Part shown: positions 31,787 to 46,598 of the stretch, piece by piece
How the letters are laid out: each line of letters opens with the position of its first letter
Position numbering within the stretch: the first letter of the stretch is position 1
NCBI RefSeq assembly: GCF_000711885.1
Contig: NZ_JONK01000035.1
Coordinates: forward strand, 1 to 46,598
Direction: 5' to 3'
Length of the DNA stretch: 46,598 bases
Origin: Chromobacterium haemolyticum DSM 19808
Lineage (GTDB): Bacteria > Pseudomonadota > Gammaproteobacteria > Burkholderiales > Chromobacteriaceae
Program-made: the position numbers and the translations under genes
The notes under the pieces: model-generated
Database searches by the model: none
What the model saw: the letters and a program-made list of their open reading frames with translations, nothing else
What the model was told of the DNA's origin: nothing

Positions 31787-32353
31787 TCAGGCGGCGCTGG
31801 TCGCCTTCTTGCCGCGGGCAACAGCGGCGCTGGCGGCCTTGGCGGAGTTGGTGGCGGCTTCAACGCTGGCTTCGGCGATTTCCGCGCTGACTTTCTTGGC
31901 GGTCTTGGACACGCTTTCAAAAGCGGCGTTGGAAGTGTTCACCAGGCTTTTCAGAGCCGTCACCGCGGCATCGGAACCCGCCGGCGCGTTCTTGGACAAA
32001 CGATCCAGATTGCTCAGCAGGGTTTGGTTGCCTTCGGCGATCTGCTCTTCGACAAAAGCGGCCAGTTCATTCTGAGTGGCCAGCGCGGCGTCGTACACAT
32101 TGCGCGCCACGGAGAAAGCCTGGTCGATGGACGGCTGTGCCAGGCTGCTCTGCACTTCCGCGAAAGCCTTGGGATCCTTGGCTTCGCTCAGCGCCTTGAT
32201 TGCCTGGGCGTTGTCTGCCAGCAGCTTGCGCGACAGATCCAGTTGCAGCGCGGCCAAACGCTCAGCGCCGGCCAGCACGATGGAGGAGAAACGCACGGCC
32301 TTGTCGAACTGCGACTGGCCGAGAGCGGAGAATTCTTGAGTAGTGGTAAACAT
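31787..32353 (-). CDS. phaP: Phasin family protein
   Basis: 188-residue amphipathic helical protein that coats polyhydroxyalkanoate granules and controls their number and size. The N-terminus MFTTTQEFSALGQSQFDKAV and the Ala/Leu/Ser-rich coiled body followed by a Lys/Ala tail fit the PF09361 phasin family. SD AGGAG lies seven bases before the ATG. Its promoter is flanked by two palindromic boxes, which points to control by a PhaR-type repressor, known to release its DNA when PHA granules appear. Confidence 0.9.
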   Translation of the reverse strand: MFTTTQEFSALGQSQFDKAVRFSSIVLAGAERLAALQLDLSRKLLADNAQAIKALSEAKDPKAFAEVQSSLAQPSIDQAFSVARNVYDAALATQNELAAFVEEQIAEGNQTLLSNLDRLSKNAPAGSDAAVTALKSLVNTSNAAFESVSKTAKKVSAEIAEASVEAATNSAKAASAAVARGKKATSAA

Positions 32354-32695: not shown

Positions 32696-32735
32696 CGCCC
32701 CATAGAATAAATCTATCTACATAAAGCCAAGTACA

Positions 32736-33452
32736 ATGAGCCCTGCGGCCAACGCATTCGACATAAAATCCGCCAGCCTGGATCTGCTGGCGCTCTTGCT
32801 GCGCACCGACGACCTGGATGAGCTGAGCCAGGCGCTGGATGCGCGCTTCGGCACCGGCCACGACGCGCCGGTAGAAGCCTTCGTCCTCGACGTGGAAGCC
32901 TTGCCCGCCCCGGCCGAACTGGATTACGGCCGCCTGCTGCCCATGCTGAGCCGCCGCGGCATCCGCGCGGTGGCCCTGCGCCACCCCAGCACCGCGCTGG
33001 CCGGCGTCGCCAGCCAGTTCGGCCTCGGCTACACCAGCAGCGCCACGCCGCCGCGCTCGGCGCAGAACGCGCCGGAGCCTGCCGACAAACCCGCCGCGCC
33101 GGAACCCGCCCAGGCGACCGGCGCCATGATCGTGGACCGTCCCGTGCGCGCCGGTCAGCAGATTTACGCCAAGGGCTGCGACCTGATCGTGCTGGCCATG
33201 GTCAGCGCCGGCGCTGAAGTCATCGCCGACGGCAACATCCATATCTACGCGCCCTTGCGCGGTCGCGCTCTCGCCGGCGCCCGCGGCAACGCCGGCGCCC
33301 GCATTTTCGCCCGCAGCATGGAAGCCGAACTGGTGTCCATCGCCGGGGTCTATCGAACTATCGAACAAGCCTTGCCCGACAGCATTCTGGGCAAGCCGAC
33401 TCAAATCTATCTCGAGAACGAGCGCCTGGTCATGTCCGCGCTCGGCGAGTAA
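32736..33452 (+). CDS. minC: Septum site-determining protein MinC
   Basis: Inhibitor of FtsZ polymerisation near the poles. 238 residues: an N-terminal FtsZ-binding domain (about 1-100), a Pro/Ala linker (about 104-126), and the beta-helix MinD-binding domain from about 130 with RAGQQIYAKGCDLIVLAMV and the Gly-rich ALAGARGNAGARIFAR turn. It is first in minCDE, 26 bp before minD. Confidence 0.97.
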   Translation: MSPAANAFDIKSASLDLLALLLRTDDLDELSQALDARFGTGHDAPVEAFVLDVEALPAPAELDYGRLLPMLSRRGIRAVALRHPSTALAGVASQFGLGYTSSATPPRSAQNAPEPADKPAAPEPAQATGAMIVDRPVRAGQQIYAKGCDLIVLAMVSAGAEVIADGNIHIYAPLRGRALAGARGNAGARIFARSMEAELVSIAGVYRTIEQALPDSILGKPTQIYLENERLVMSALGE

Positions 33453-33478: not shown

Positions 33479-34291
33479 GTGGCAAAAATCATCGTTGTGA
33501 CGTCCGGCAAGGGTGGCGTCGGTAAAACCACTACCAGTGCCAGCTTCTCCTCCGGCCTGGCGTTGCGCGGTCACAAAACCGTCGTCATCGACTTCGACGT
33601 CGGCCTGCGCAACCTGGACCTGATCATGGGTTGCGAACGCCGCGTGGTCTATGACCTGATCAATGTCGTCAACGGCGAAGCCAGCCTGAACCAGGCGCTG
33701 ATCAAGGACAAGAACTGCGACAACCTTTACATCATCCCCGCCTCGCAAACCCGCGACAAAGACGCGCTGACGCTGGACGGCGTGGAGAAGGTATTGAAGG
33801 ACCTGGCCGAAGCCGGCTTCGAATACATCGTCTGCGACTCTCCGGCCGGCATCGAAAAAGGCGCGCTGATGGCGCTGTACTTCGCCGACGAAGCGCTGAT
33901 CGTCACCAATCCGGAAGTCTCCTCTGTGCGCGACTCCGACCGCATCCTGGGCATTCTGTCCTCCAAGTCCAAGCGCGCGGAAGAAAGCCGCGAGCCGGTC
34001 AAGGAACACCTGCTCATCACCCGCTACTCCGCCGGCCGCGTCGACAAGGGCGAAATGCTGTCTGTGGACGATGTGAAGGAGATTCTGCGCGTGCCGCTGC
34101 TGGGCGTGATTCCGGAGTCGCAGACCGTTCTGCAAGCCTCCAACTCCGGCACCCCGGCCATCCACCTGAAAGGCTCGGACGTTGCCGACGCCTATTCCGA
34201 CGTGGTGGCCCGTTTCCTGGGCGAAGAGCGCCCGATGCGTTTCCTCGATGCCCCCAAGGTGGGCATTCTGAAACGCCTCTTTGGAGGTTAA
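33479..34291 (+). CDS. minD: Septum site-determining ATPase MinD
   Basis: Membrane-bound ParA/MinD-family ATPase that recruits MinC and oscillates with MinE. 270 residues from a GTG at 33479 with SD AAAGG. Deviant Walker A KGGVGKTT (11-18) with the signature Lys11, and the C-terminal amphipathic membrane-targeting helix ending ILKRLFGG. It is four bases ahead of minE. Confidence 0.98.
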   Translation: MAKIIVVTSGKGGVGKTTTSASFSSGLALRGHKTVVIDFDVGLRNLDLIMGCERRVVYDLINVVNGEASLNQALIKDKNCDNLYIIPASQTRDKDALTLDGVEKVLKDLAEAGFEYIVCDSPAGIEKGALMALYFADEALIVTNPEVSSVRDSDRILGILSSKSKRAEESREPVKEHLLITRYSAGRVDKGEMLSVDDVKEILRVPLLGVIPESQTVLQASNSGTPAIHLKGSDVADAYSDVVARFLGEERPMRFLDAPKVGILKRLFGG

Positions 34292-34294
34292 GTC

Positions 34295-34552
34295 ATGTCC
34301 CTGATCGAAATGATCTTTGGCAAGCGCCAGAAAACCGCGGCCATTGCCAGAGAACGGCTGCAAATCATCCTGGCCCACGAACGCAACGGCCGCAGCGCGC
34401 CCGACTATCTGCCGGCGCTGCAGCGCGAGCTGATGGAAGTGATCTCCAAATACGTCGCGGTCAATCTGGACGACATCAAAGTACAGGTGGAGCGTCAGGA
34501 CGATTTTGAAGTGCTGGAAGTCAATATCGTGCTGCCGGAGCACCAGCGCTGA
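34295..34552 (+). CDS. minE: Cell division topological specificity factor MinE
   Basis: 85-residue activator of MinD ATPase. The anti-MinCD region includes [15 protein letters not shown], and the C-terminal topological domain follows. SD GGAGG overlaps the minD end. The gene is three bases before the regulator gene, so translation of the whole block is probably coupled. Confidence 0.97.
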
Positions 34553-34555
34553 GCC

Positions 34556-35494
34556 ATGACGCTGACCGAACTTCGCTATATCGTCGCGGTGGCGCGGGAG
34601 CGCCACTTCGGCCGCGCCGCGCAAAGCTGCTTCGTCAGCCAGCCGACGTTGTCCATCGCCATCAAGAAGCTGGAGGACGAACTGGGCGTCACGCTGTTTG
34701 AGCGCGGCGGCCAGGAAGTCAGCGTCACCGAGATCGGCGAGCGCATCATCGAGCAATCGCAGCGCGTGCTGGAAGAAGCCGAAACCGTCAAACGCCTGGC
34801 CGGCGAGCATCAGAACGAGCTGGTGGGCCCGCTGAAGCTGGGGGTGATTTTCACCATCAGCCCCTATCTGCTTCCGCGCCTGATCCCGGCCTTGCGCATC
34901 CTGGCGCCTGACATGCCCTTGATCCTGGAGGAGAACTACACCTCACGGCTCTCGGAAATGCTCAAGCGGGGCGAGGTGGACGCCATCATCGTCGCCGATC
35001 CCTTCGACGAAGCCGGCACCGTGGCGAGCCCGTTGTACGACGAGCCCTTCGTCGTGGCCACGCCCAAGGGCCACCCCTGGGAAAAGCTGGGCGCCATCGC
35101 CGCCAATCAACTGGCAGACGAGAGCGTCTTGCTGCTGACCCAGGGCAATTGCTTCCGCGACCAGGTGCTGCAAGCCTGCAGCGACCTCGCCAGCCGGCAA
35201 AGCCATGGCGGCACGCTGGCGGCCAATCTGCAAGGCAGCTCGCTCAACACCATCCGCCACATGGTGGCCAGCGGCATGGGCGTCACGGTGATGCCGTCGA
35301 CCTCGATAGGCCCGACCGATGAGTCGCTGCTGTCGGTGGTGCCGTTCAAGACGCCGGCGCCGCAGCGCCGCGTGCTGTTGGTGACTCGCAAGCAGTTCTT
35401 CCGCAAGAAGGCGATCGACACCCTGCAACAGGCGGTGTTCCGCTCCGGGCTGGAAGGCGTTTCCATGCTGGAAGGCGCAACGCCAACGCCCTGA
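34556..35494 (+). CDS. oxyR: OxyR-type LysR regulator
   Basis: 312-residue LysR-family regulator. The N-terminal winged helix (FGRAAQSCFVSQPTLSIAIK) and co-inducer domain are complete. Redox cysteines fall at 199 and 208 (GNCFRDQVLQAC), exactly the E. coli OxyR positions that form the peroxide-sensing disulfide. Its ATG is three bases after minE, so it belongs to the min operon, an arrangement known from Neisseria. It is convergent with the dep operon and separated by a terminator. From memory, a regulator named depR was later added to the FK228 cluster and is OxyR-like; this gene is the candidate. Confidence 0.9.
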   Translation: MTLTELRYIVAVARERHFGRAAQSCFVSQPTLSIAIKKLEDELGVTLFERGGQEVSVTEIGERIIEQSQRVLEEAETVKRLAGEHQNELVGPLKLGVIFTISPYLLPRLIPALRILAPDMPLILEENYTSRLSEMLKRGEVDAIIVADPFDEAGTVASPLYDEPFVVATPKGHPWEKLGAIAANQLADESVLLLTQGNCFRDQVLQACSDLASRQSHGGTLAANLQGSSLNTIRHMVASGMGVTVMPSTSIGPTDESLLSVVPFKTPAPQRRVLLVTRKQFFRKKAIDTLQQAVFRSGLEGVSMLEGATPTP

Positions 35495-35562: not shown

Positions 35563-36327
35563 TCACAAAAATCGGCCAAGCTCCTCGTTCAGTATCGCGA
35601 ACAAACTGTCCGGCCTCCCATTCAGAAAGAAGTGATCGCCGGGAAGGATCTCGCTGCGGAAGCCGCCGGTGGTGTAGCCTCGCCATGAAGCCGCCGCCTC
35701 CGCGCCCCGGACCTCTTCGCTGCCGCCAAGGGCAAGGATGCGGCAGCTCAGCGGAGGACGCGGCTCGGGATGGTAGGTCTCTATCGCCTCGAAATCGGCA
35801 TGCAGCACCGGCAGAATGATCTGAACCAGCTCCGGGTGCTCCAGCACTTCCGCCGGCGTGCCGTTCATCCTCATCACCTCGTCCAGAAACTGCTCGTCCG
35901 GCAAAGCGTGGATCGGCCGATCCCTCGCGGGCAAGTGCGGCGCTGCGCGACCGGAAACGATCAAACACGACGGCGACGGCAGGCCTCGCGCCAGCGCCCG
36001 TTGAGCCACTTCAAACGCCAGGCTCGCGCCCATGCTGTGCCCGAACAAGGCGTAAGGCCGGTCCAGAAACGGCGCAATCGCGTCCGTCGCCTCGTCGGCC
36101 AGCTGATCCAGCCGGTAGCGCAGCGCATCGTGAAACCGCCGCCCCCGCCCCGGCGGATGCATCGGACGGACATCCACCTCGGCCGGAAGCCGCTCCTCCC
36201 AGCCCCGGAACACCGCCGCGCCGCCGCCCGCATACGGAAAGCAAAACAGGCGCAGCGCCGCATGCCGGCCCGCCGGCGCGGCGTCCACCCACGCGCCGCC
36301 CGGCGCCGGCTTCCATTCGCGGTTCAT
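35563..36327 (-). CDS. depJ: Type II thioesterase DepJ
   Basis: 254-residue alpha/beta hydrolase that removes wrongly loaded acyl groups from NRPS/PKS carrier proteins. The ATG at 36327 overlaps the depI stop (ATGA); the larger open frame upstream is a shadow of depI. Family marks are CFPYAGGGAAVFRGWEERLP, the nucleophile Ser98 in GHSMG, and His232 in LPGDHFFL. Where TEII enzymes carry the catalytic Asp (GG-x-D-D), this protein has Glu204-Glu205. It is the last gene of the cluster. Confidence 0.92.
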   Translation of the reverse strand: MNREWKPAPGGAWVDAAPAGRHAALRLFCFPYAGGGAAVFRGWEERLPAEVDVRPMHPPGRGRRFHDALRYRLDQLADEATDAIAPFLDRPYALFGHSMGASLAFEVAQRALARGLPSPSCLIVSGRAAPHLPARDRPIHALPDEQFLDEVMRMNGTPAEVLEHPELVQIILPVLHADFEAIETYHPEPRPPLSCRILALGGSEEVRGAEAAASWRGYTTGGFRSEILPGDHFFLNGRPDSLFAILNEELGRFL

Positions 36328-37238
36328 GGCGCCACCTTGCGAACGAAACCGCCGGCCTCTTTGATCGCCGCCCTCGCCTCCGGCAGCATGGGCGCCAAGG
36401 TGGCCCATGCGTGCGGCAGCCGCCGCCACACCTTGAAGTCCACCGCGACGCCGGCCGCGCTCGCCTTGCGAGCCACGCGCGCGGCGTCGTCCAGCAGCAC
36501 CTCGGTGTCGCTGGCCTGGATGAACAAATCGGGCAGGCCAGCGTAATCGCCGTAGAGCGGCGAGGCGATGGGATGATCGGCCGCGGCGTCGCCAAGGTAG
36601 TAACGCGAGAAATTCCTCACCGCAACCGCGCTCAGCATCACGTCGGACGCATCGTTCGCTTCCAGTGACGCTCCGGTCGCCGCCAAATCCGTCCACGGCG
36701 AGAACAGCACCGCCCCGGCCGGCAAGGGCGCGCCCGCGTCGCGCAGCGACAGCAGCAAGGCGAGCGCCAGCCCGCCCCCCGACGAATCGCCGGCGATCAC
36801 GATCCGGTCCGCCGCCACGCCCTCGTCCAGCAGCGCCTGATACGCCGCCAGCGCGTCGTCGACGGCGGCGGGGAACGGATGTTCCGGCGCAAGCCGGTAA
36901 TCCAGCGAAAACGCCCGTGCGTCCGCTTCCCGCGCCAGCGCGGCGGCCACGCCCCGGTGCGTGACCGGGGAGCAGAAGCAATAGCCGCCGCCGTGCAGAT
37001 ACAGAATGACCCGCCCGGTCGCCTCGCGCCGCTCGGCGGCCTCCGGCTCTATCCACTCGCCTCGCAACGCCTGCGCGTCCAGCTTGCGCACCCGCCATCC
37101 GCGCGGCGGCTTTGCTTCGCCGCGAGCCCATTTCGCGCTGCGCTCGCGCATTTCCTGAGCGGTCAGGCCGGGTTTGCGGGTCAGAGATTTGGCCGTTCTG
37201 CGCAACAGCCACGAAAAACATAGGTTTTGCCAACTCAT
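36324..37238 (-). CDS. depI: HSL-family esterase/lipase DepI
   Basis: 304-residue alpha/beta hydrolase of the hormone-sensitive-lipase family. The oxyanion motif is HGGGYCF (82-88), the nucleophile Ser152 lies in GDSSGG, and the family segment SLDYRLAPEHPFPAAVDD is present; the C-terminal His is in LPHAW. The start at 37238 (MSWQNLCFSW) lies 55 bp after depH; the ORF is open 68 codons upstream inside depH. It overlaps depJ as ATGA. Its role in FK228 synthesis is unclear; hydrolytic editing or precursor trimming are possible. Confidence 0.9.
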   Translation of the reverse strand: MSWQNLCFSWLLRRTAKSLTRKPGLTAQEMRERSAKWARGEAKPPRGWRVRKLDAQALRGEWIEPEAAERREATGRVILYLHGGGYCFCSPVTHRGVAAALAREADARAFSLDYRLAPEHPFPAAVDDALAAYQALLDEGVAADRIVIAGDSSGGGLALALLLSLRDAGAPLPAGAVLFSPWTDLAATGASLEANDASDVMLSAVAVRNFSRYYLGDAAADHPIASPLYGDYAGLPDLFIQASDTEVLLDDAARVARKASAAGVAVDFKVWRRLPHAWATLAPMLPEARAAIKEAGGFVRKVAP

Positions 37239-37293
37239 TGATCTATTTCCGGTAGCTAGAAAGAGAAACGCGCCGCCACGCCCCGCGCGCGCC

Positions 37294-38199
37294 TCACCCG
37301 AACACCAACTTGCGATGCGCGGCGATGCCCGCCAGCGCGCCGTTGCCGATGGCCAGCGCCACGGTGCCGCCCCGATGCGTGATGTCGCCGCAAGCGAACA
37401 CGCCCGGCGTGGAAGTCTCCATTGCGTCGTCGGTCCGCACATACGGCCCCAGCGGCCCCTCCTCTATCGCGCAGCCCAGTTGTTCCGCGACGGGGCTGGA
37501 CAGGCGCATGCGGTTCATCGTGAACAGCCCGTCGAACGCGATCCGGCGCCCATCGGCAAGTTCGACGGTGGCGCGGTCGACAATGCGCGCGATCCGGTCG
37601 CGCACGATCTCAACGCCCCGCCGCGCCAGCGCCTCGCGCTGCTCCTCGTCCGGCTCGAAGCTAGCGTCGGTCAGAAAAACGGTCTGCCCCCACTCCGGCA
37701 TCAACATCGCCGACAAATAGGACAAGGGCCCGCCGCCGAGCACGCCGATGCGGCCCCCATCCAGTTCGTAGCCATGGCAGTAGGGGCAGTGGAACACGCT
37801 TTTCCCCCAGCGTTCCTCCAGGCCCTCCAGTTCCGGCAGCTCGTCCACCACGCCGAAGGCGAGCACCAGCTGGCGCGCTCTGTAGTGTTGCCCGGATGCG
37901 CAGATGAGCGTATAGCCGGCGTCGCTCCGCTCCGCCCGGACCACGCTGTCCTCCCGCCATTGCGCGTTAGGGTAAGCAAGTAGTTGCGCCTTGCCGTCCG
38001 CGGCGATCGCGTCCGGCGAACGTCCGTCCTGGCCGATCACGCCGTGAGATTGAGAGGCGAAGCGGTTGCGGCGCGCGCCGGCATCAATCACCAGCACGCG
38101 GCGGCGCGCGCGCGCGATCTGCAGCGCGGCGGATTGTCCGGCGTGACTGCCGCCGATCACGACGACGTCGAACAACATTGGGGAGGTTTCGGAATTCAT
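37294..38199 (-). CDS. depH: FAD-dependent disulfide oxidoreductase DepH
   Basis: 301-residue flavoprotein of the low-molecular-weight thioredoxin reductase fold. FAD motif VVVIGGSHAGQSAAL (12-26), redox centre C138-P-Y-C141, NAD(P) motif GVLGGGPLS (152-160), and C-terminal FAD motif GVFACGD. This is the group of dithiol oxidases (DepH, HlmI, GliT) that close the disulfide of natural products; DepH forms the FK228 disulfide from the dithiol. The start at 38199 has SD AAGGA; the longer ORF is a shadow of depG. It begins 50 bp after depG. Confidence 0.93.
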   Translation of the reverse strand: MNSETSPMLFDVVVIGGSHAGQSAALQIARARRRVLVIDAGARRNRFASQSHGVIGQDGRSPDAIAADGKAQLLAYPNAQWREDSVVRAERSDAGYTLICASGQHYRARQLVLAFGVVDELPELEGLEERWGKSVFHCPYCHGYELDGGRIGVLGGGPLSYLSAMLMPEWGQTVFLTDASFEPDEEQREALARRGVEIVRDRIARIVDRATVELADGRRIAFDGLFTMNRMRLSSPVAEQLGCAIEEGPLGPYVRTDDAMETSTPGVFACGDITHRGGTVALAIGNGALAGIAAHRKLVFG

Positions 38200-38249
38200 G
38201 GGTCGAGTGTCCTTGATTGGAAATGAATGGGATGGCGCGCGGGCGGCCT

Positions 38250-39215
38250 TCATAGGCGGCCGCCGCCGCATGCTTCCGCCGCGCGGTCCAGCAGCCAGCG
38301 CACGATCAGCTTGGCGCGCGGCACCCGCTGGCCTTCGTCCCGGCGCCGCAGCGCCAGTTGCTGCGTGATTACCGCCAAGCGCAGCAGGCCGTAGGCATAC
38401 CAATAGGCGGGAGCCGTCACCTCGCGTCCGGCCGCCGCCGCGTACAAATCGACCAGCGCCTCGCGCGTCGGCGCGCCCGGCGCGCAGCTCGGCCCGGGCG
38501 CGTCCAGCCGCAACAGCGACGAGTCCCGGCTCTCTATCCAGTAAGCGAGCGCGGCGCCAAGGTCGGCCAGCGGATGGCCGACTGCGGCCAGCTCCCAGTC
38601 GACGACGCCCACCACCCGCGCGGGGTCGCCCGGATCGACGAGGATGTTGTCCAGCTTGTAGTCGTTGTGCAGCCAGGCCGCGGGCGCGGTCTCGGGCATA
38701 CTCTCGGTCAGCCAGTCGGCCACGGCGCTGAAGTCGGCGTCTATCGCCCCGCCCGCCTCCTCCGCGTTCCAGCGCCGCCGCCACTCGCTCAGAATGCGAC
38801 GCAGATAGTCGGGGGGCCGATCGGCGGGCGCGACCTCCAGCGCATGCAGGCTCGCCAGCGTCCCGATGAAGTTTTCCGCGAGCCGGCGCACCGTGTCGGG
38901 AGCGAGCGGCCCGCAAGCCGCCGGCGCGACGCCCTCCAGTTTTTCGACCAGCAACAAGGCGGCGTCGCCGTCCTCATCAACCGCCAGCGGCCTGGGCGCG
39001 AGCCGGAACTGGCCAGCCATCCGCTCAAGGAGCGCGAAACGACGCCGCGCTTCCCGCGCGCCGCCCTCCGGCAGCCAGTAGGCGATGAGCTCGCTGTCGC
39101 CCCCCTGCACCAAAAACACTTCGCTGGCCCGGCCGCCGCCGACGTGCGTCGCGCGCGCGCCCATGCCGGAGCGGCCCAATGCCGCCATCGCCCGCTCCGC
39201 TATTCGCGCGCTCAT
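38250..39215 (-). CDS. depG: APH-fold phosphotransferase DepG
   Basis: 321-residue kinase of the aminoglycoside phosphotransferase fold. The catalytic loop is HNDYKLDN (183-190, Asp185), and the metal-binding Asp206 lies in VVDWELAAVGHPLADL. This layout is that of the APH domain found at the N-terminus of vertebrate ACAD10/ACAD11. Its ATG overlaps the depF stop as ATGA, linking it to the acyl-CoA dehydrogenase. In the dep cluster it is listed as a phosphotransferase; a hydroxyacyl thioester is the likely substrate by analogy. Confidence 0.92.
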   Translation of the reverse strand: MSARIAERAMAALGRSGMGARATHVGGGRASEVFLVQGGDSELIAYWLPEGGAREARRRFALLERMAGQFRLAPRPLAVDEDGDAALLLVEKLEGVAPAACGPLAPDTVRRLAENFIGTLASLHALEVAPADRPPDYLRRILSEWRRRWNAEEAGGAIDADFSAVADWLTESMPETAPAAWLHNDYKLDNILVDPGDPARVVGVVDWELAAVGHPLADLGAALAYWIESRDSSLLRLDAPGPSCAPGAPTREALVDLYAAAAGREVTAPAYWYAYGLLRLAVITQQLALRRRDEGQRVPRAKLIVRWLLDRAAEACGGGRL

Positions 39216-40384
39216 GTCAGCTCCCGGCGGAAGCCGGCCAGCGCATGGCGCGCCACCAGCGCTTTGTGGACTTCGTCCGGGCCGTCGTAAATCCGCCCCG
39301 CTCGTTCATGCCGCCACAACACGTTGAGAATCGTGTCGCCGCTGACGCCCAGCGCGCCTTGCACCTGCAGCGCGTGATCGAGCACGGTCTGCGTTGCGCC
39401 GGCCACGAAAAATTTCGCGATCGAGATGTCGATCTGCGCGCGCTCATGACGGTTTTGCAACCGCGTGGCCGCCTGAGTCACCAGCAGCCGCGCGGCGTCT
39501 ATCGACGCGCGGCTCTCGGCGATCCAGTTCTGCACGGTCTGGCGCGAGGACAACAGCTCTCCCGCCGCCAGCTCCCGACGGCATGCGCGCCTGCACATGA
39601 TGGCGAACGCGCGCTCGCACACGCCAATCCAGCGCGCGCAATGATGCAGCCGCCCGGTGGCGAGCCGGGCCTGCAACACGACGAAGCCCTCTCCCGGCTT
39701 GCCCAGCATCGCATCCTCACCCACCCGGCAATCGTCCAGCTCCAGTTCGCCGTGGCTGGCCCAGCCGCAGCCTTCGTCGCCCATCACGCGCAGATTGCGG
39801 ACATGGTGGAAGCCCGGCGCGTCGGTCGGCACAATGAAGGTGCTGGTGCGCGCGTGCAGCGGCGCGGCCTCGTCGGTGACGGCCAGCACGATGGCGAAGC
39901 CCGCGCCGTCGGCGCCGGACGCGAACCATTTGCGGCCGCTCAAGTGCCAGCCGCCGTCCTTGTACACCGCCGTCGTTTTCAGCGAGGAGGGGTTGGATCC
40001 GGCGGACTCGGGCTCCGTCGCCGCGAAGCAGCTGCGCAGCTCGCCGCGCAGCAGCGGCTCCAGCCAGCGCCGGCGCTGCGCGGGAGTCGCGTACTCCAGC
40101 AGCACGTCGATATTGCCGGCGTCGGGCGCCTGGTAGTTGACCGCGTAATGGCCCAGCGGCGAGGCGCCCAGCAGTTCGCCTACTTCCACCAGCTCAAGCA
40201 GGCTCAAGCCCAGGCCGCCGTCCGCGCGCGGCACCTGCGGCAGCCAGACGCCTTTCATCCGGTTGCTCTCGCGGATGCCGCTCATCAGCCGTTCAAGGGT
40301 TTCGAAATCGCCGTTGGCGAGCGCCGCCTCCGGTTCCGCCAGCGCCGCTTCAACGGCGGCGAATGCCTTCACTCGTGTATTCAT
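39212..40384 (-). CDS. depF: FadE2-like acyl-CoA dehydrogenase DepF
   Basis: 390-residue flavin enzyme of the acyl-CoA dehydrogenase family. FAD/substrate segment FAATEPESAGSNPSS (120-134), middle beta domain with GRKWFASGA, and C-terminal RIYDGPDEVHKALVARH (364-380). The catalytic position holds Asp367 in YDGPDEVH, the FadE2/ACAD10-11 subtype, instead of the Glu of ordinary beta-oxidation enzymes. It overlaps depE and depG by ATGA junctions. In FK228 synthesis it is thought to act on the cysteine-derived starter. Confidence 0.93.
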   Translation of the reverse strand: MNTRVKAFAAVEAALAEPEAALANGDFETLERLMSGIRESNRMKGVWLPQVPRADGGLGLSLLELVEVGELLGASPLGHYAVNYQAPDAGNIDVLLEYATPAQRRRWLEPLLRGELRSCFAATEPESAGSNPSSLKTTAVYKDGGWHLSGRKWFASGADGAGFAIVLAVTDEAAPLHARTSTFIVPTDAPGFHHVRNLRVMGDEGCGWASHGELELDDCRVGEDAMLGKPGEGFVVLQARLATGRLHHCARWIGVCERAFAIMCRRACRRELAAGELLSSRQTVQNWIAESRASIDAARLLVTQAATRLQNRHERAQIDISIAKFFVAGATQTVLDHALQVQGALGVSGDTILNVLWRHERAGRIYDGPDEVHKALVARHALAGFRRELT

Positions 40385-43300
40385 TGTTCTTCCTCGGTTT
40401 GCTTCACGGAAACGGATCGGCGCGCGGCGGCTTCCGCGGCGCGCAAAGCGGCGGCTAGCCCGTTGACGAACGGGCGGCGCATGATGCCGATATGGTCGCC
40501 GGCCAGGCGAACCACCGTCGCCGCGCCCGAAGCCGCCTGACGCCAGCCGTTGATGAGCGCTTCACCATCCCCGTCGGCGGCCACGATCACGTGCAAGGCT
40601 CCCGCATAAGGCGTCGCCGGTGTGTAATCGGTCAGCGAATGCACAATGAAGGCGCGCACGCGCGCCGCGAATTCGGGCAGGCCGAGCGCCTCCGGCACCG
40701 CGCCCGCCTCGACCAAGCGCTCGCGCAAATGTTCGACTCTCCGCGCATCGTCCAGCGCGTCGAATTCGCCTTCGTCGAACACCAGTTCGGCGTCGGCCAG
40801 GCGCGCGAAGCTGTTGCCGATCTCCGCGACCCAACGGCCGCCTTGCCAATCCTGTTTCCGCGACTGCGCCGCCGGCCCCGGCGGCAAACTGTCCACCACC
40901 GCGACCCAGTCCACCGCCTCGCCCTGTCCGGCCAATTGCCGGGCAACCTCAAAAGCGACCCAACCTCCAAAGGAATGACCGCCGAGACGATACGGGCCGT
41001 AAGGCTGCACCCGCCGGATGTCCGCGATCAGCGCCGTCGCCATCGCTTCCACGCTGCCGGCGTCGCCGGGCAGCGTCATGCCCCACACCGAGAAGGCATT
41101 CGGCAACTCGGCCGCGAGCGCGCGCAGATACGGCACATGGCCGCCCGCGCCAGGCGCGAAGAACAGCGGCGGCGCGTCGCCCTGCGAGGACAAGGCGACG
41201 AGCGAGCCGACCCGGGCGCCGTCTTCGCCCGCGCCGTCTGTCTCAATGACGCGGGCTTGCTCGGCCACCGTCTGTGCCGTCAGCAAGCGAGCCACCACCG
41301 CTGAGTTCAGCCCAAACGCCCGGCCGGCGCGGGAGCAGATCCGCAACATCAGCAGCGAGTCTCCGCCCAACGCCACAAAATCGCTGTCGTCGGACGGCGG
41401 TTCGCGCTTGAGCACGGCTGCCCATAGCGCCCTCAGCTCGCGTCGCAGGGCCGCGCCGCTAGGCCGCGCCGCCGCGGCCCTCCCGGCGGCGGCCGGCGTC
41501 GCGGCGGTAGAGGCCCCGCTCCGGCGCTCTCCGCCGTCCGCCCTTATCGCGCCGACGGCGCCTGCGCCCTCTGCCGCGGGCTCGCCTAGCAGCGTTCGCA
41601 AGGCGTCCGCGTAGAGAGCCGCGAAGCGGTTGACGGTCGCCGTAGAGAAATACCCGCGCGACGGGACCAGCGTGATCCGCAGTGCGCGCTGCCGGCCGTC
41701 GAAGCTGCTCTGCACCACCAGCGGCACATTAGTCATATCGCTCGCATAGCCGTCGGAAACCTCGATGTCGCGCACCGCTTCCTCCAGAGCGCGGAAATGC
41801 GTGAAGTTGAACAGCGCGTCGAACACCGTGCCGGCCTGTCGATGCAATTCGATCAAGGGATAGCGCCGGCGACTGAAGACTTCCAGCTCGGCCGACTGCA
41901 CCGCGCGCACCAACGCGACGGCGTCGAAGGCGCCGGCCGGAAAGTCGAAACCCAGCGGCAGACTGTTCAGGAACAGGCCCAGCACCCGATCGCCGTCAAC
42001 ACCCTCGCTGCGGCCGTTGAACACCACGCCGCTGGTCACCGAGGATGCGCCTGCGATGCGCGACAAGGCGAGCAGATGGGCTGTCAGCAGCACGCTTTTC
42101 ACTGATGCGCCCGCGCTCGCGGCAAGCGCTTCCAGGCCAGCCGACTGGGCCGCCGAAATGGGCACTTCGACCGGCTCCGCGTCGCCGCCCGGCTCCCGCG
42201 CCAGCCGTGTGACCGGCAAGGATTGCAGACGCGCGCGCCACCAATCGCGCAGCGATTCCGAACGCGCCGCCTCGCGCTCCCGCTCGACGAAATCGCGGAA
42301 CCGGCTCGCGGGCGCAGCCAGCGTCAGCGGCCGGCCGGCCAGCCGCGCCGAATAGTCGGAGATCAGCTCGGAGAGCAGCAGGTTGAAACTCCAGCCGTCC
42401 AGAATCGCGTGGTGCTTGGTCACGCCGATGTGCATCGCCTCTTCGCTCAAGCGGTACACGGCGAAGCGGATCAGCGGCGGACGCTCGACGTCGAAGCGCC
42501 GGCCCCGCTCGGCTTCGCGCCAATCTCGAATCCGCGCGTCCTGCCGCTCCGGGTCCAGGCCTCGCCAATCGCAGACCGTCAGCGGCAAAGGCACTTGACG
42601 ATGCACGTACTGCAGCGGCTCCTCGTCGGCCGCGAGGTCGAAAGCGGTGCGCAGCGCCGGATGGCGTTCAAAGGCGCCGCGGAGCGCCGCCTCTAGCGCG
42701 GCAGCGTCGAATGGCAGAGCCAGACGCTGGCCGTTGACGTTGTGGTAAGCCGAGTCCTGGCCGTGCCGCATCTCGTTGGCGAGCATCGCCATCTGCATTG
42801 CGCTGAGCGGATAGGCGTCCTCGTGGACGGCATCTAGCGGCGGTGCGCTCGCGGCCGGCGGCGCCGAGTCCGCCTGCCGGACGCGCGGCGCGAGCCGCTC
42901 TATGGTCAGCGAGCGCATCAAATCGTCCAGCGAAAAATCGATGTTGACCTTGTGCGCGGCGGACAGGATCTGAATGCTCAGGATGGAGTCGCCGCCCAGC
43001 TCGAAAAAGTTGTCGGTAACGCCGATAGGCGAGCGTTTGAGCACGGACTCGAACACACCGACCAGCGCCTGCTCCACCGCGTTGCGCGGCGCTATGCGCG
43101 GACGCGCCGCGTCGGCGTCCGCCGCCAGCGCGCCGGCCAGCCTGCGGCGATCCAGCTTGCCGTTGCTCGTCAGCGGAATCGCGTCCATCTCGACCACACG
43201 CGCCGGCACCGCGTGCGGCGGCAGGCGCTGGGCAAGCCAGTCCCGCAGCGCGGAACCGGACACGCGCGCCGAACCGCGCGCCACCACAAAACCCGCCAAT

Positions 43301-46059
43301 TGGGCGTGGCCGTCTATGGTCGCGTCGTCGACCATGACCGCCGCCGCGGCGACATCCGGATGCCCGGCCAGCGTCGCCTCCACTTCGCCCAGCTCGATGC
43401 GGAAACCGCGGATCTTGACCTGGTCGTCGATGCGGCCCAGATAGTCCAGCTCGCCGCGCGCGTCGAAGCGCCCTAGGTCTCCGCTGCGATAAAGCCGCTC
43501 GCCGGGCAGGAACGGGTCCGCGATGAAACGCTCGCGGTCGAGCTCGGGGCGATTGTGGTAACCGCGCGCCACGCCCTCCCCGCCCACGTGAATTTCGCCC
43601 GGCACGCCCGGCGGCACCGGATGCCCGGCGGCGTCAAGCAGGTAGACGCGGTAGCCCGGCAAGGGCCGGCCCACAGGGCTGCGCGACGACTGCGCGTCGC
43701 CCGGGCCCAATACGCGCTCGGTGACATGCACCGTGGTCTCGGTGATGCCGTAGAGATTGACCAGCGCCACCCCGCCCGCATCGTTCAGGCAGGCGGCGAA
43801 CTGGCTGGGAATCGTCGCCTCGCCGCCAAAGAACACATAGCGCAAGCCGGCCGGCAAAGGCCGCCGCGCGTCGTCCAGCGCGCGCAGCAGTTGCTTGAAA
43901 GCGCTGGGGGTCTGGCTCAGCATCGTGACGCCCTCGCGTTCCAGCAGCGCGAGAAATTCGTCCGGCGTGCGCGAGCAGCGGTAAGGCACGATTTCCAGCC
44001 GTCCGCCATGCAGCAAGGCGCCCCAGATTTCCCATACCGAGAAATCGAAGGCATAGGAATGGAACAAGGTCCATACGTCCGACGGTCCAATGCCGTAGCT
44101 CCGGCGCGTGGCCGCGAACAAATGGTCCGCGTTGCGGTGCTCCACGCACACGCCTTTAGGCTGCCCGGTCGAACCCGAGGTGTAGATCACATAGCATAGG
44201 TCCGCGGGCGAAGTGTCTCGCGGCGGCGGCGCGTCTTCGCGCTCGTCGGGCGCCGCCGCATCCCCCATCCCGATCAGAACCCCGCCGAAGTCCCCGAAGC
44301 GATCTCGCGCCTCCTCGCCGCAGATCAGCGCGCCGGCGCCGATATCGTCCAGCATCCATGCGAGGCGTTCCGAGGGATGGTCGAGATCCAGCGGCACGTA
44401 AAAGGCGCCCGCCTTCAGCACGGCCAGAATCGCGACGACGCTGTCCATGCCGCGCCCAAACGCCAGCGCGACAGGCGCGTTGCCGCGCACCCCGGCCGCG
44501 TCCAGCCGCCAGGCCAGCCGGTTGGCGCGGCGATCCAGTTCCGCGTAAGTGAGCGTCTCGCCGTCGCATTTCAGCGCGACGGCGTCCGGCCGCGAGCGCG
44601 CTTGCGCCTCAAAACGGCGATGCAGGCACTGGCGCTCCGCATCGTCCGCGCGACGGGCCGCCGCGTTCCAGCGCGCGGCCAGCGCGCCGCCAGCTTCGTC
44701 GCCCAACAGCGACACCCGCGCGACGCTCAGCGCCGGGCCGCCGCGTTCGAACTGGCCCAACACCCCCGCCAGCATCTCGACGACCCGCTCCGCCGACGCC
44801 GCCGAAATCCGCTGGCGGTCGAAATGCAGACGCAGGCTCAAACGCTCGCCGGGAATCGCCACCACGGTCAGCGGGTAATTGGTCTGCTCGACCACCTCGA
44901 CATCGCTCACGCCCAGTTGCTCGCGATAGCGTTTCGCATCCGCCCGCGCCGGGTAGTTCTCAAACACCACCAGGCTCTCGAACAAGGGCGCGCCGGGAGC
45001 GACTCCGCTCCAGCCCGGAATCGCGTGCAGCGGGGTATACGCATAGGCTTCGGTGTCGACGTGCTGGCGATGCAGCCGCCGCAGCCAGTCGCCCAGCGTC
45101 AGTTCAAGGTCGACGGACGCGCGCGTCGGCAGCGCGTTGACAAAGAGCCCCACCATCTGCTCGACGCCGCGCAGCGCCGCCGGCCGGCCGGACACGGTGG
45201 TGCCGAACACCACGTCGTCGCGGCCGCTCGCGCGCGCCAACAACAAGGCCCAGGCGGCCTGGATCACCGTGCTCTGCGTGAGCTCGCACTCTCGCGCCAA
45301 ACGCTGCAAACCCTCGCTCGTGCGCGCGTCGAGCTCGCGTTCTATCAGACCGTGGCCGGGCGCGCGGTCCGGACGCGCGTCGTCGGCGAACGGCAGGGGC
45401 GTGGCCGAGCACACATCGCCCAGCCGCGCTCGCCAGAAAGCCTCGGCCTCGGCGCCGTCCTGTTCGTCCAACCAGCGCAGGAAGGCGCTGTACGGCTGGG
45501 GCGGCGGCATAGCCGGAACGGCGCTGCGCCGGTAAGTGTCGTAAAAGGCGAGCGCCTCCCCCAGCACGATCTGCACCGACCAACCATCCAGCAGCAGATG
45601 GTGATAGCTCCACACGAACTCGTAGCGCTCCTCTCCGGTGCGGAATAAGGCGCAACGCATCAGCGGCGCGCGGCTCAGGTGAAAACCGGGACGCCGGTCC
45701 GCGTCCCGATAGGCGGCGAGACGGCGCTGCTGCTCCTCTTGGTCAAACGCCCGCCAGTCCTCCTCCACCCACGGCAGTTCGACGTCGCGGAAGACCACTT
45801 GCACCGGCTTGGACGGGCCGTCCCACAAAAAGCCGGTGCGCAGCACGCCGTGCCGCGCGACCACCGCCTCCAGCGCGCGCCGGTAATCGGCGGCGTTGAG
45901 CGCGGCGTGGAAGGAGCAAGCCACCTGTTCGTAATAGACTCCGGACTCCGGCGCCTTCAGCGTATGAAACAGCAGGCCCTGTTGCGTCGGCGTCAACGGC
46001 AGCATGGTCTCGACTTTCGAGCGGGCTTGCTGTGCGGTATTCGATAATGTTTGGTTCAT
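40381..46059 (-). CDS. depE: Terminal NRPS DepE (C-A-PCP-C-PCP-TE)
   Basis: 1892 residues from the ATG at 46059, which overlaps the depD stop. Domains: C1 about 18-450 (HHLLLDG 153-159, of the type that accepts a D-residue donor); A about 475-975 (YTSGSTGQPKG 626-636, YRSGDLGR 857-864, NGKLDRR 966-972); PCP1 with Ser1025 in LGGDS; C2 about 1082-1490 (HHAILDG 1216-1222); an Ala/Gly-rich linker (about 1491-1535) where an A domain would be; PCP2 with Ser1568 in LGGDS; TE about 1628-1875 with Ser1696 (GHSFG), Asp1723 and His1856. The readable selectivity residues are DFWSFGLVHK, close to threonine-type codes. In FK228 this protein adds dehydrobutyrine (from Thr) and L-Val, and the TE closes the ring. 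Confidence 0.95.
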   Translation of the reverse strand: MNQTLSNTAQQARSKVETMLPLTPTQQGLLFHTLKAPESGVYYEQVACSFHAALNAADYRRALEAVVARHGVLRTGFLWDGPSKPVQVVFRDVELPWVEEDWRAFDQEEQQRRLAAYRDADRRPGFHLSRAPLMRCALFRTGEERYEFVWSYHHLLLDGWSVQIVLGEALAFYDTYRRSAVPAMPPPQPYSAFLRWLDEQDGAEAEAFWRARLGDVCSATPLPFADDARPDRAPGHGLIERELDARTSEGLQRLARECELTQSTVIQAAWALLLARASGRDDVVFGTTVSGRPAALRGVEQMVGLFVNALPTRASVDLELTLGDWLRRLHRQHVDTEAYAYTPLHAIPGWSGVAPGAPLFESLVVFENYPARADAKRYREQLGVSDVEVVEQTNYPLTVVAIPGERLSLRLHFDRQRISAASAERVVEMLAGVLGQFERGGPALSVARVSLLGDEAGGALAARWNAAARRADDAERQCLHRRFEAQARSRPDAVALKCDGETLTYAELDRRANRLAWRLDAAGVRGNAPVALAFGRGMDSVVAILAVLKAGAFYVPLDLDHPSERLAWMLDDIGAGALICGEEARDRFGDFGGVLIGMGDAAAPDEREDAPPPRDTSPADLCYVIYTSGSTGQPKGVCVEHRNADHLFAATRRSYGIGPSDVWTLFHSYAFDFSVWEIWGALLHGGRLEIVPYRCSRTPDEFLALLEREGVTMLSQTPSAFKQLLRALDDARRPLPAGLRYVFFGGEATIPSQFAACLNDAGGVALVNLYGITETTVHVTERVLGPGDAQSSRSPVGRPLPGYRVYLLDAAGHPVPPGVPGEIHVGGEGVARGYHNRPELDRERFIADPFLPGERLYRSGDLGRFDARGELDYLGRIDDQVKIRGFRIELGEVEATLAGHPDVAAAAVMVDDATIDGHAQLAGFVVARGSARVSGSALRDWLAQRLPPHAVPARVVEMDAIPLTSNGKLDRRRLAGALAADADAARPRIAPRNAVEQALVGVFESVLKRSPIGVTDNFFELGGDSILSIQILSAAHKVNIDFSLDDLMRSLTIERLAPRVRQADSAPPAASAPPLDAVHEDAYPLSAMQMAMLANEMRHGQDSAYHNVNGQRLALPFDAAALEAALRGAFERHPALRTAFDLAADEEPLQYVHRQVPLPLTVCDWRGLDPERQDARIRDWREAERGRRFDVERPPLIRFAVYRLSEEAMHIGVTKHHAILDGWSFNLLLSELISDYSARLAGRPLTLAAPASRFRDFVEREREAARSESLRDWWRARLQSLPVTRLAREPGGDAEPVEVPISAAQSAGLEALAASAGASVKSVLLTAHLLALSRIAGASSVTSGVVFNGRSEGVDGDRVLGLFLNSLPLGFDFPAGAFDAVALVRAVQSAELEVFSRRRYPLIELHRQAGTVFDALFNFTHFRALEEAVRDIEVSDGYASDMTNVPLVVQSSFDGRQRALRITLVPSRGYFSTATVNRFAALYADALRTLLGEPAAEGAGAVGAIRADGGERRSGASTAATPAAAGRAAAARPSGAALRRELRALWAAVLKREPPSDDSDFVALGGDSLLMLRICSRAGRAFGLNSAVVARLLTAQTVAEQARVIETDGAGEDGARVGSLVALSSQGDAPPLFFAPGAGGHVPYLRALAAELPNAFSVWGMTLPGDAGSVEAMATALIADIRRVQPYGPYRLGGHSFGGWVAFEVARQLAGQGEAVDWVAVVDSLPPGPAAQSRKQDWQGGRWVAEIGNSFARLADAELVFDEGEFDALDDARRVEHLRERLVEAGAVPEALGLPEFAARVRAFIVHSLTDYTPATPYAGALHVIVAADGDGEALINGWRQAASGAATVVRLAGDHIGIMRRPFVNGLAAALRAAEAAARRSVSVKQTEEEQ

Positions 46060-46598
46060 AACTGTTCGTTCAGTAGCTGTAACACTTCGTCGATATCGTT
46101 CTGGTCCAGATGAGCAAGCGGCAGGTCCGACGGCGTCAGCCCTCCGGACTCCGGCGACTGGCAATGCGCCAGCACCGCGTCCAGTTCCGCGCGGAAACCC
46201 TCGGCCAGCGCCTTGATCGCGTCTTCCCGCTGTCGCGCCGCGCTATACAGCCAGTCCACCCGCAAGCGCCCTTCGTGCACCTGCGCCACCACGTCCAGCC
46301 CGTAGCGCCGCGTCATCCCCGCCCCGCGCGTCCCGCCCGGCGGCTCGCCCAACCACGTGGAGCGCGGCTCGCCGCCCTCCTCCAGCCGCCATTGGCCCAG
46401 GTAGTTGAAACACACCGTGCGCGCGTGACCGCCCAGCTCCGACCCGCGGCCGCCGTAACGCAGCGCGTGGTAAGCCAGGCCGCCGTCCGGCACGCTCCGC
46501 ATCCGCTCCTTCACCCGTTTCAGGTCTCCTGACAGCTCCCCGCTCAGCGGCAGCCGCAGCGGATACAGGCTGGTGAACCAGCCCACGGTGCGCGACAC
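46056..46598 (-). CDS. depD: NRPS DepD, C-terminal end only
   Basis: The last 180 codons of an NRPS running in from the right edge. Epimerization-domain motifs are visible: RTVGWFTSLYPLRL (E5-E6 region) and VCFNYLGQW (E7). It ends with a short acidic tail (LDQNDIDEVLQLLNEQL) that could be a docking helix for DepE. An E domain at the end of this protein fits the D-Cys residue that precedes dehydrobutyrine in FK228. The apparent Met at the edge is not a true start. Confidence 0.9.
   Translation of the reverse strand: MSRTVGWFTSLYPLRLPLSGELSGDLKRVKERMRSVPDGGLAYHALRYGGRGSELGGHARTVCFNYLGQWRLEEGGEPRSTWLGEPPGGTRGAGMTRRYGLDVVAQVHEGRLRVDWLYSAARQREDAIKALAEGFRAELDAVLAHCQSPESGGLTPSDLPLAHLDQNDIDEVLQLLNEQL

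Follow-up and report, generated by a model that had tools for sequence, protein, structure and literature searches.

A contig end in Chromobacterium very probably carrying the 3′ half of an FK228 (romidepsin) dep cluster

The stretch of DNA analysed here, referred to as the window, is the whole of contig C32 (G000:C32:1-46598; 46,598 nucleotides) from a 5.03-Mb genome in 63 contigs, and its right end is the right end of the contig at 46598. The minus strand of positions 35563-46598 carries seven consecutive genes that run into this end. This raises the question of which biosynthetic line these genes belong to, and where the part beyond the contig end is located. The favoured answer, given a probability of about 0.97, is that the FK228 (romidepsin) dep cluster is represented at the window end by its 3′ half, in a Chromobacterium near strain no. 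968 of C. violaceum and C. haemolyticum. As FK228 is approved as an anticancer drug that inhibits histone deacetylases, each producer strain is of practical use.

Gene content and flank of the window end

The run consists of the 3′ end of depD and complete copies of depE, depF, depG, depH, depI and depJ (Table 1). The order depD-E-F-G-H-I-J is that of C. violaceum no. 968, whose FK228 dep cluster is GenBank EF210776. The preliminary description had placed seven genes of one direction in this published order and had read them as an E-domain NRPS, a C-A-PCP-C-PCP-TE NRPS, a dehydrogenase, a phosphotransferase, a CxxC flavoprotein, an esterase/lipase and a thioesterase. Their coordinates are confirmed, and the functions are borne out by Pfam and by the CPYC motif of DepH. 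The frames submitted to Pfam for DepE, DepI and DepJ began from a few up to 18 codons upstream of the starts in Table 1. “FadE2-like” is the published label for the DepF product. Adjacent genes share 4-bp ATGA overlaps at five of the six junctions (D/E at 46056, E/F at 40381, F/G at 39212, G/H at 38250 and I/J at 36324), one more than the four counted earlier, and the sole junction with a spacer (55 bp) lies between depH and depI. The G+C content is 69-70% across 36001-46000, compared with 56-64% in the remaining window.

Table 1. Features of the dep gene run and of the adjoining flank in the window
Feature	Position	Strand	Description
depD 3′ end	46598-46056	-	180 aa, runs off contig; C-terminal part of second E domain (partial PF00668 match, profile positions 287-447); 81-95% identity with the end of DepD from four dep loci
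depE	46059-40381	-	1892 aa; NRPS, C-A-PCP-C-PCP-TE (Pfam, core motifs)
depF	40384-39212	-	390 aa; acyl-CoA dehydrogenase, PF00441/PF02770/PF02771; 93-98% identity in four dep loci
depG	39215-38250	-	321 aa; APH phosphotransferase, PF01636; 86-96% identity, full-length, in four dep loci
depH	38253-37294	-	319 aa; FAD-dependent disulfide-forming oxidoreductase, Pyr_redox_2, CPYC at residues 156-159
depI	37238-36324	-	304 aa; esterase/lipase, PF07859 (Abhydrolase_3)
depJ	36327-35563	-	254 aa; type II thioesterase, PF00975, GHSMG motif
depR	34556-35494	+	312 aa; LysR-type (OxyR-like) regulator, last gene of min operon; Pfam HTH_1/LysR_substrate
minE (orf19 of published map)	34295-34552	+	85 aa; PF03776
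minD (orf20 of published map)	33479-34291	+	270 aa; Pfam AAA_31, CbiA (CobQ/CobB/MinD/ParA), ParA
minC (orf21 of published map)	32736-33452	+	PF03775, PF05209
DepR-binding site core, predicted	32701-32717	+	17 bp, exact copy of published sequence
orf22, phasin gene	31787-32353	-	567 bp; PF09361

In strain 968, the right boundary of the dep genes is described as minCDE-depR (orf21-20-19-depR) with the phasin gene orf22 beyond it, and DepR is reported to repress this phasin gene (PMC5908139). This published flank is reproduced in the window. The range 35563-46598, assigned earlier to the cluster, holds all seven dep genes, whereas depR and the min operon fall outside it. The depR gene has the length and position of the published DepR, and three dep loci encode a protein that shares 99% of 310 residues with its product. 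The reading frame at 33479-34291 is called minD since it sits between minC and minE. Both the length of the phasin frame (567 bp) and the phasin-minC spacer (382 bp) equal the published figures. The sequence of the 17-bp DepR site, its place and a footprint of 36-2 nt come from the same account (PMC5908139). The predicted core occurs once in the window, with no mismatch, while none of 100 shuffles matched at up to 2 mismatches; it sits 35-19 nt ahead of the minC start, within the published footprint.

Likeness to other dep loci

Comparison with the proteins of strain 968 covered DepH, by way of the PDB. Entries 4jn9, 4jna and 4nte are taken to be DepH from C. violaceum no. 968, and the DepH of the window differs from the solved protein at 5 of 319 residues over its full length (98.4% identity, counted on the alignment). 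The second-best PDB match, 3fbs, has a bit score of 337 versus 706. The other six dep proteins of the window were matched by tblastn, in rows above 65% identity, at 74-98% identity in G015 (=L003), G011 (=L006), G022 and L004; DepE lies at 75-98% and falls into two pieces in G015. The orthologue-level identity to strain 968 that had been expected holds for DepH, and the figures for the other six refer to these four relative loci, not to strain 968.

A romidepsin cluster comprising depA-J, depM and depR has been described in three further strains, namely C. haemolyticum MDA0585, C. haemolyticum W10 and Chromobacterium sp. Panama; their average identities to strain 968 are 98.3%, 98.0% and 89.6%, respectively (PMC5906607). 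C. haemolyticum has also been reported to make romidepsin (PMC12077216). The DepH identity of 98.4% agrees with these published values for C. haemolyticum, and the window genome probably belongs to this species or to its closest kin, although a single protein is no proof of the species. Because of the published clusters and this agreement, the dep reading is regarded as correct and, at the same time, as already known: publications cover the cluster, its regulator and the fact that C. haemolyticum carries it. The value of the window is that of a further closely related dep copy, the other half of which can be placed on a second contig.

DepH at an identity of at least 85% occurs in five of 19 Chromobacterium genomes, the present one included (G000, G015, G011, G014 and G022). 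Among the 61 genomes of the family that were searched, the 42 outside the genus gave no DepH row above 48%. A similar step is seen among 80 of the 157 DepH relatives on GTDB contigs: four (L003-L006) reach at least 85%, and the other 76 at most 57%. Three of these four records are C. haemolyticum H4137, C. aquaticum DSM 19852 and C. alkanivorans IITR-71, and the fourth is titled Burkholderia multivorans WS-FJ9.

The last of these (L004, 1700-12700) holds a dep cluster with DepE at 75% and DepF at 93%, and an Imm11 immunity gene downstream; tblastn gave no depR match above 65% at this locus. FK228 from a Burkholderia is already on record (PMC3435793). In the record titled C. aquaticum DSM 19852 (L005, L104; G014:C4:1-12000), the end of depG and depH, depI and depJ are present at 85-100% identity, and G014:C192 holds a DepD piece at 88%; the stretch G014:C4:1-12000 gave no depR match above 65% (tblastn). 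As far as the published description goes, another assembly of C. aquaticum has an index of 27% for the romidepsin cluster, i.e., it is scored as absent (PMC5906607).

In G015 (L098, L099; G015:C7:46001-86000), six of ten dep proteins checked by tblastn (DepA, B, C, D, E and I) are split or shortened. As a control, 42 mechanically defined reading frames from the flanks, some of them antisense, were searched with rows above 85% identity retained; 34 gave rows, 33 of these as a single match and 29 with a coverage of at least 97%. The split genes may reflect either decay of the cluster or a sequence or assembly error in a G+C-rich stretch.

The missing half and the gap in depD

Genes of the depA-C type had been expected beyond the contig end. 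They are present on contig C21 of the same genome, where the minus strand from the left end to ~21 kb carries a DepM-like gene, DepA, DepB, DepC and most of DepD, in the proper order and direction and with DepD leading off the contig end. The DepM-like gene, upstream of DepA, encodes a class I/II aminotransferase. The DepA frame was taken from stop to stop (1768 aa; 1715 aa from the first ATG), and a Pfam scan of 1405 aa, the part on L001, shows two AMP-binding domains and two carrier domains. By Pfam, DepB is KS-DH-KR-ACP and DepC is KS-KR-ACP, with no AT domain found in either. The DepD front is arranged as docking domain-C-A-PCP-E-C-A over 2525 aa and is open at the contig end.

The FK228 dep line requires a trans-AT and an Sfp-type PPTase. 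Elsewhere the genome encodes two AT proteins that stand alone and have the size of FabD, and a PPTase frame of 236 aa lies beside one of 164 aa outside the cluster. Together with the AT-less DepB and DepC, these genes fit this requirement. A third AT belongs to a multidomain locus on C2 (G000:C2:180315-189582) that is PUFA-synthase-like; its open frames, of 2271 and 1478 codons, give three ketosynthase matches and one AT match. Nine matches to the Condensation family mark a large NRPS cluster at G000:C18:71345-97129, which is possibly the lipodepsipeptide line reported for the group.

G011 and G022 each have an unbroken depD on a single contig, and in both the distance between the last matched residue of the DepD front and the start of the window tail is 1104 nt. 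Subtracting the 49 nt that remain on C21 leaves a gap of ~1055 nt, which is in frame and equal from both genomes. DepD of G015 is shortened and therefore unusable for this measure. By this spacing, C21 and C32 appear to be adjacent, with an assembly gap of ~1.05 kb inside depD that would hold PCP2 and the front of E2. The E tail of the window also matches the first DepD E domain of G011 and G022, at 82-84%; such resemblance between the two DepD E domains would explain the break in the assembly.

The split depD, together with the broken dep genes of the sister genome G015, could be taken as signs of a decayed and non-producing copy. This is highly improbable, as no inner stop interrupts the open frames of DepA-C and DepE-J or those of the two DepD parts. 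The interruption of depD is explained by the assembly, given the equal in-frame spacing in two relatives. A decayed copy was rejected on account of the open frames.

The cap, its product and known systems

Outside the ~1.05-kb gap, the cap machinery is NRPS only. The A-domain codes, read by eye from the core sequences with positions 278-301 included and position 517 left out, are DAFWLGGTF for the first and DLFEMSLIW for the second module of DepD (DLYNLSLIW in DepA), and DFWSFGLVH for DepE. They are presumably of the Val type, of a Cys-like type off the textbook code and of the Thr type, in this order. The DepE code segments are identical in G011, G022 and G015, with two neighbouring residues differing in L004, and those of DepD module 1 are identical in G011, G022 and G015. 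Pfam finds no A domain in the second module of DepE, which is followed by the protein's own terminal TE and directly by depF. Loading of valine has been described on a DepD tetra-domain (PMC13324335).

A cluster of the spiruchostatin or thailandepsin (burkholdac) type, whose cap line includes a PKS module, would share the same pharmacophore machinery (PMC13324335). Ten ketosynthase matches were obtained in the genome, and only two of them, DepB and DepC, belong to the cluster; three lie at C2:180-190 kb, one of FabF size lies on C10, and the remaining four, in frames 398-449 codons long, are weak and partial. The profile search of the genome, to which the ~1.05-kb gap is external, gave no ketosynthase match on C32 and, on the dep part of C21, only those in DepB and DepC. 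A narrow pattern for the KS active-site motif gave no match; the KS domains of DepB and DepC were found by Pfam. The earlier statement that the cap lacks a PKS module is upheld by this result and by DepE closing with its own TE, with depF directly after it. The cap codes are of Val, Cys and Thr types. A spiruchostatin/thailandepsin cluster is thus barely conceivable and was rejected, no cap PKS module being found outside the gap.

The cap domains fit FK228 (D-Val, D-Cys, dehydrobutyrine, L-Val) and not spiruchostatin, thailandepsin or FR-901375. Since the last DepE module is devoid of an A domain, the last cap residue is not fixed by the sequence. This leaves room for an FK228-type cluster that makes a close congener, e.g., with another residue at this position, and the off-textbook, Cys-like code of DepD module 2 points the same way. 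Such a product is very unlikely, as romidepsin production is described for C. haemolyticum and for Chromobacterium sp. Panama, whose clusters have the same architecture (PMC5906607), and the code segments of DepE and of DepD module 1 are shared by relatives to the extent given above. That the product is FK228 itself is inferred from published work and general background. The proposal of FK228 or a very close analogue from a known system is supported by the DepH identity, by depA-C in the genome and by the cap without a PKS.

Gene content, order, domains, DepH identity and flanks are seen here; for the chemistry, published work and general background are the source. DepA would load and process a cysteine-derived starter, on which DepF, DepG and DepM most likely act. 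DepB and DepC, as PKS modules with no AT of their own, would convert the starter into the 3-hydroxy-7-mercapto-heptenoyl zinc-binding group. DepD may dock to DepC via its N-terminal TubC-type docking domain and add D-Val and D-Cys. Thr, which ends as dehydrobutyrine, would then be added by the DepE module C-A-PCP, and L-Val by the A-less C-PCP module, with valine provided from outside its own module, before the TE closes the depsipeptide ring. DepH would form the disulfide that yields the prodrug. DepJ is a putative editing thioesterase, and DepF, DepG, DepI and DepM are presumed accessory enzymes.

Of the known systems, the dep cluster of C. violaceum no. 968 is alike in the depD-E-F-G-H-I-J order, DepH, the minCDE-depR flank, the phasin gene and the DepR site core; the difference seen amounts to the five DepH residues, in a comparison by sequence limited to DepH. 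The clusters of MDA0585, W10 and Panama have the same architecture, as judged from their published description (PMC5906607). The spiruchostatin (spi) and burkholdac/thailandepsin (bhc/tdp) clusters are described as sharing the pharmacophore NRPS-PKS and its docking to a cap subunit, but their cap lines are NRPS-PKS (PMC13324335), whereas the window cluster has no cap PKS module. The FR-901375 (pcd) cluster of Pseudomonas chlororaphis subsp. piscium DSM 21509 is likewise described as having the pharmacophore genes, a DepH homologue and a tetrapeptide cap (PMC13324335). It was rejected as a match, since its cap is assigned to a single four-module protein, PcdK, with dual E/C domains and encoded at the flank (PMC13324335), whereas here the cap is divided between DepD, in which the E domains are separate, and a second protein, DepE.
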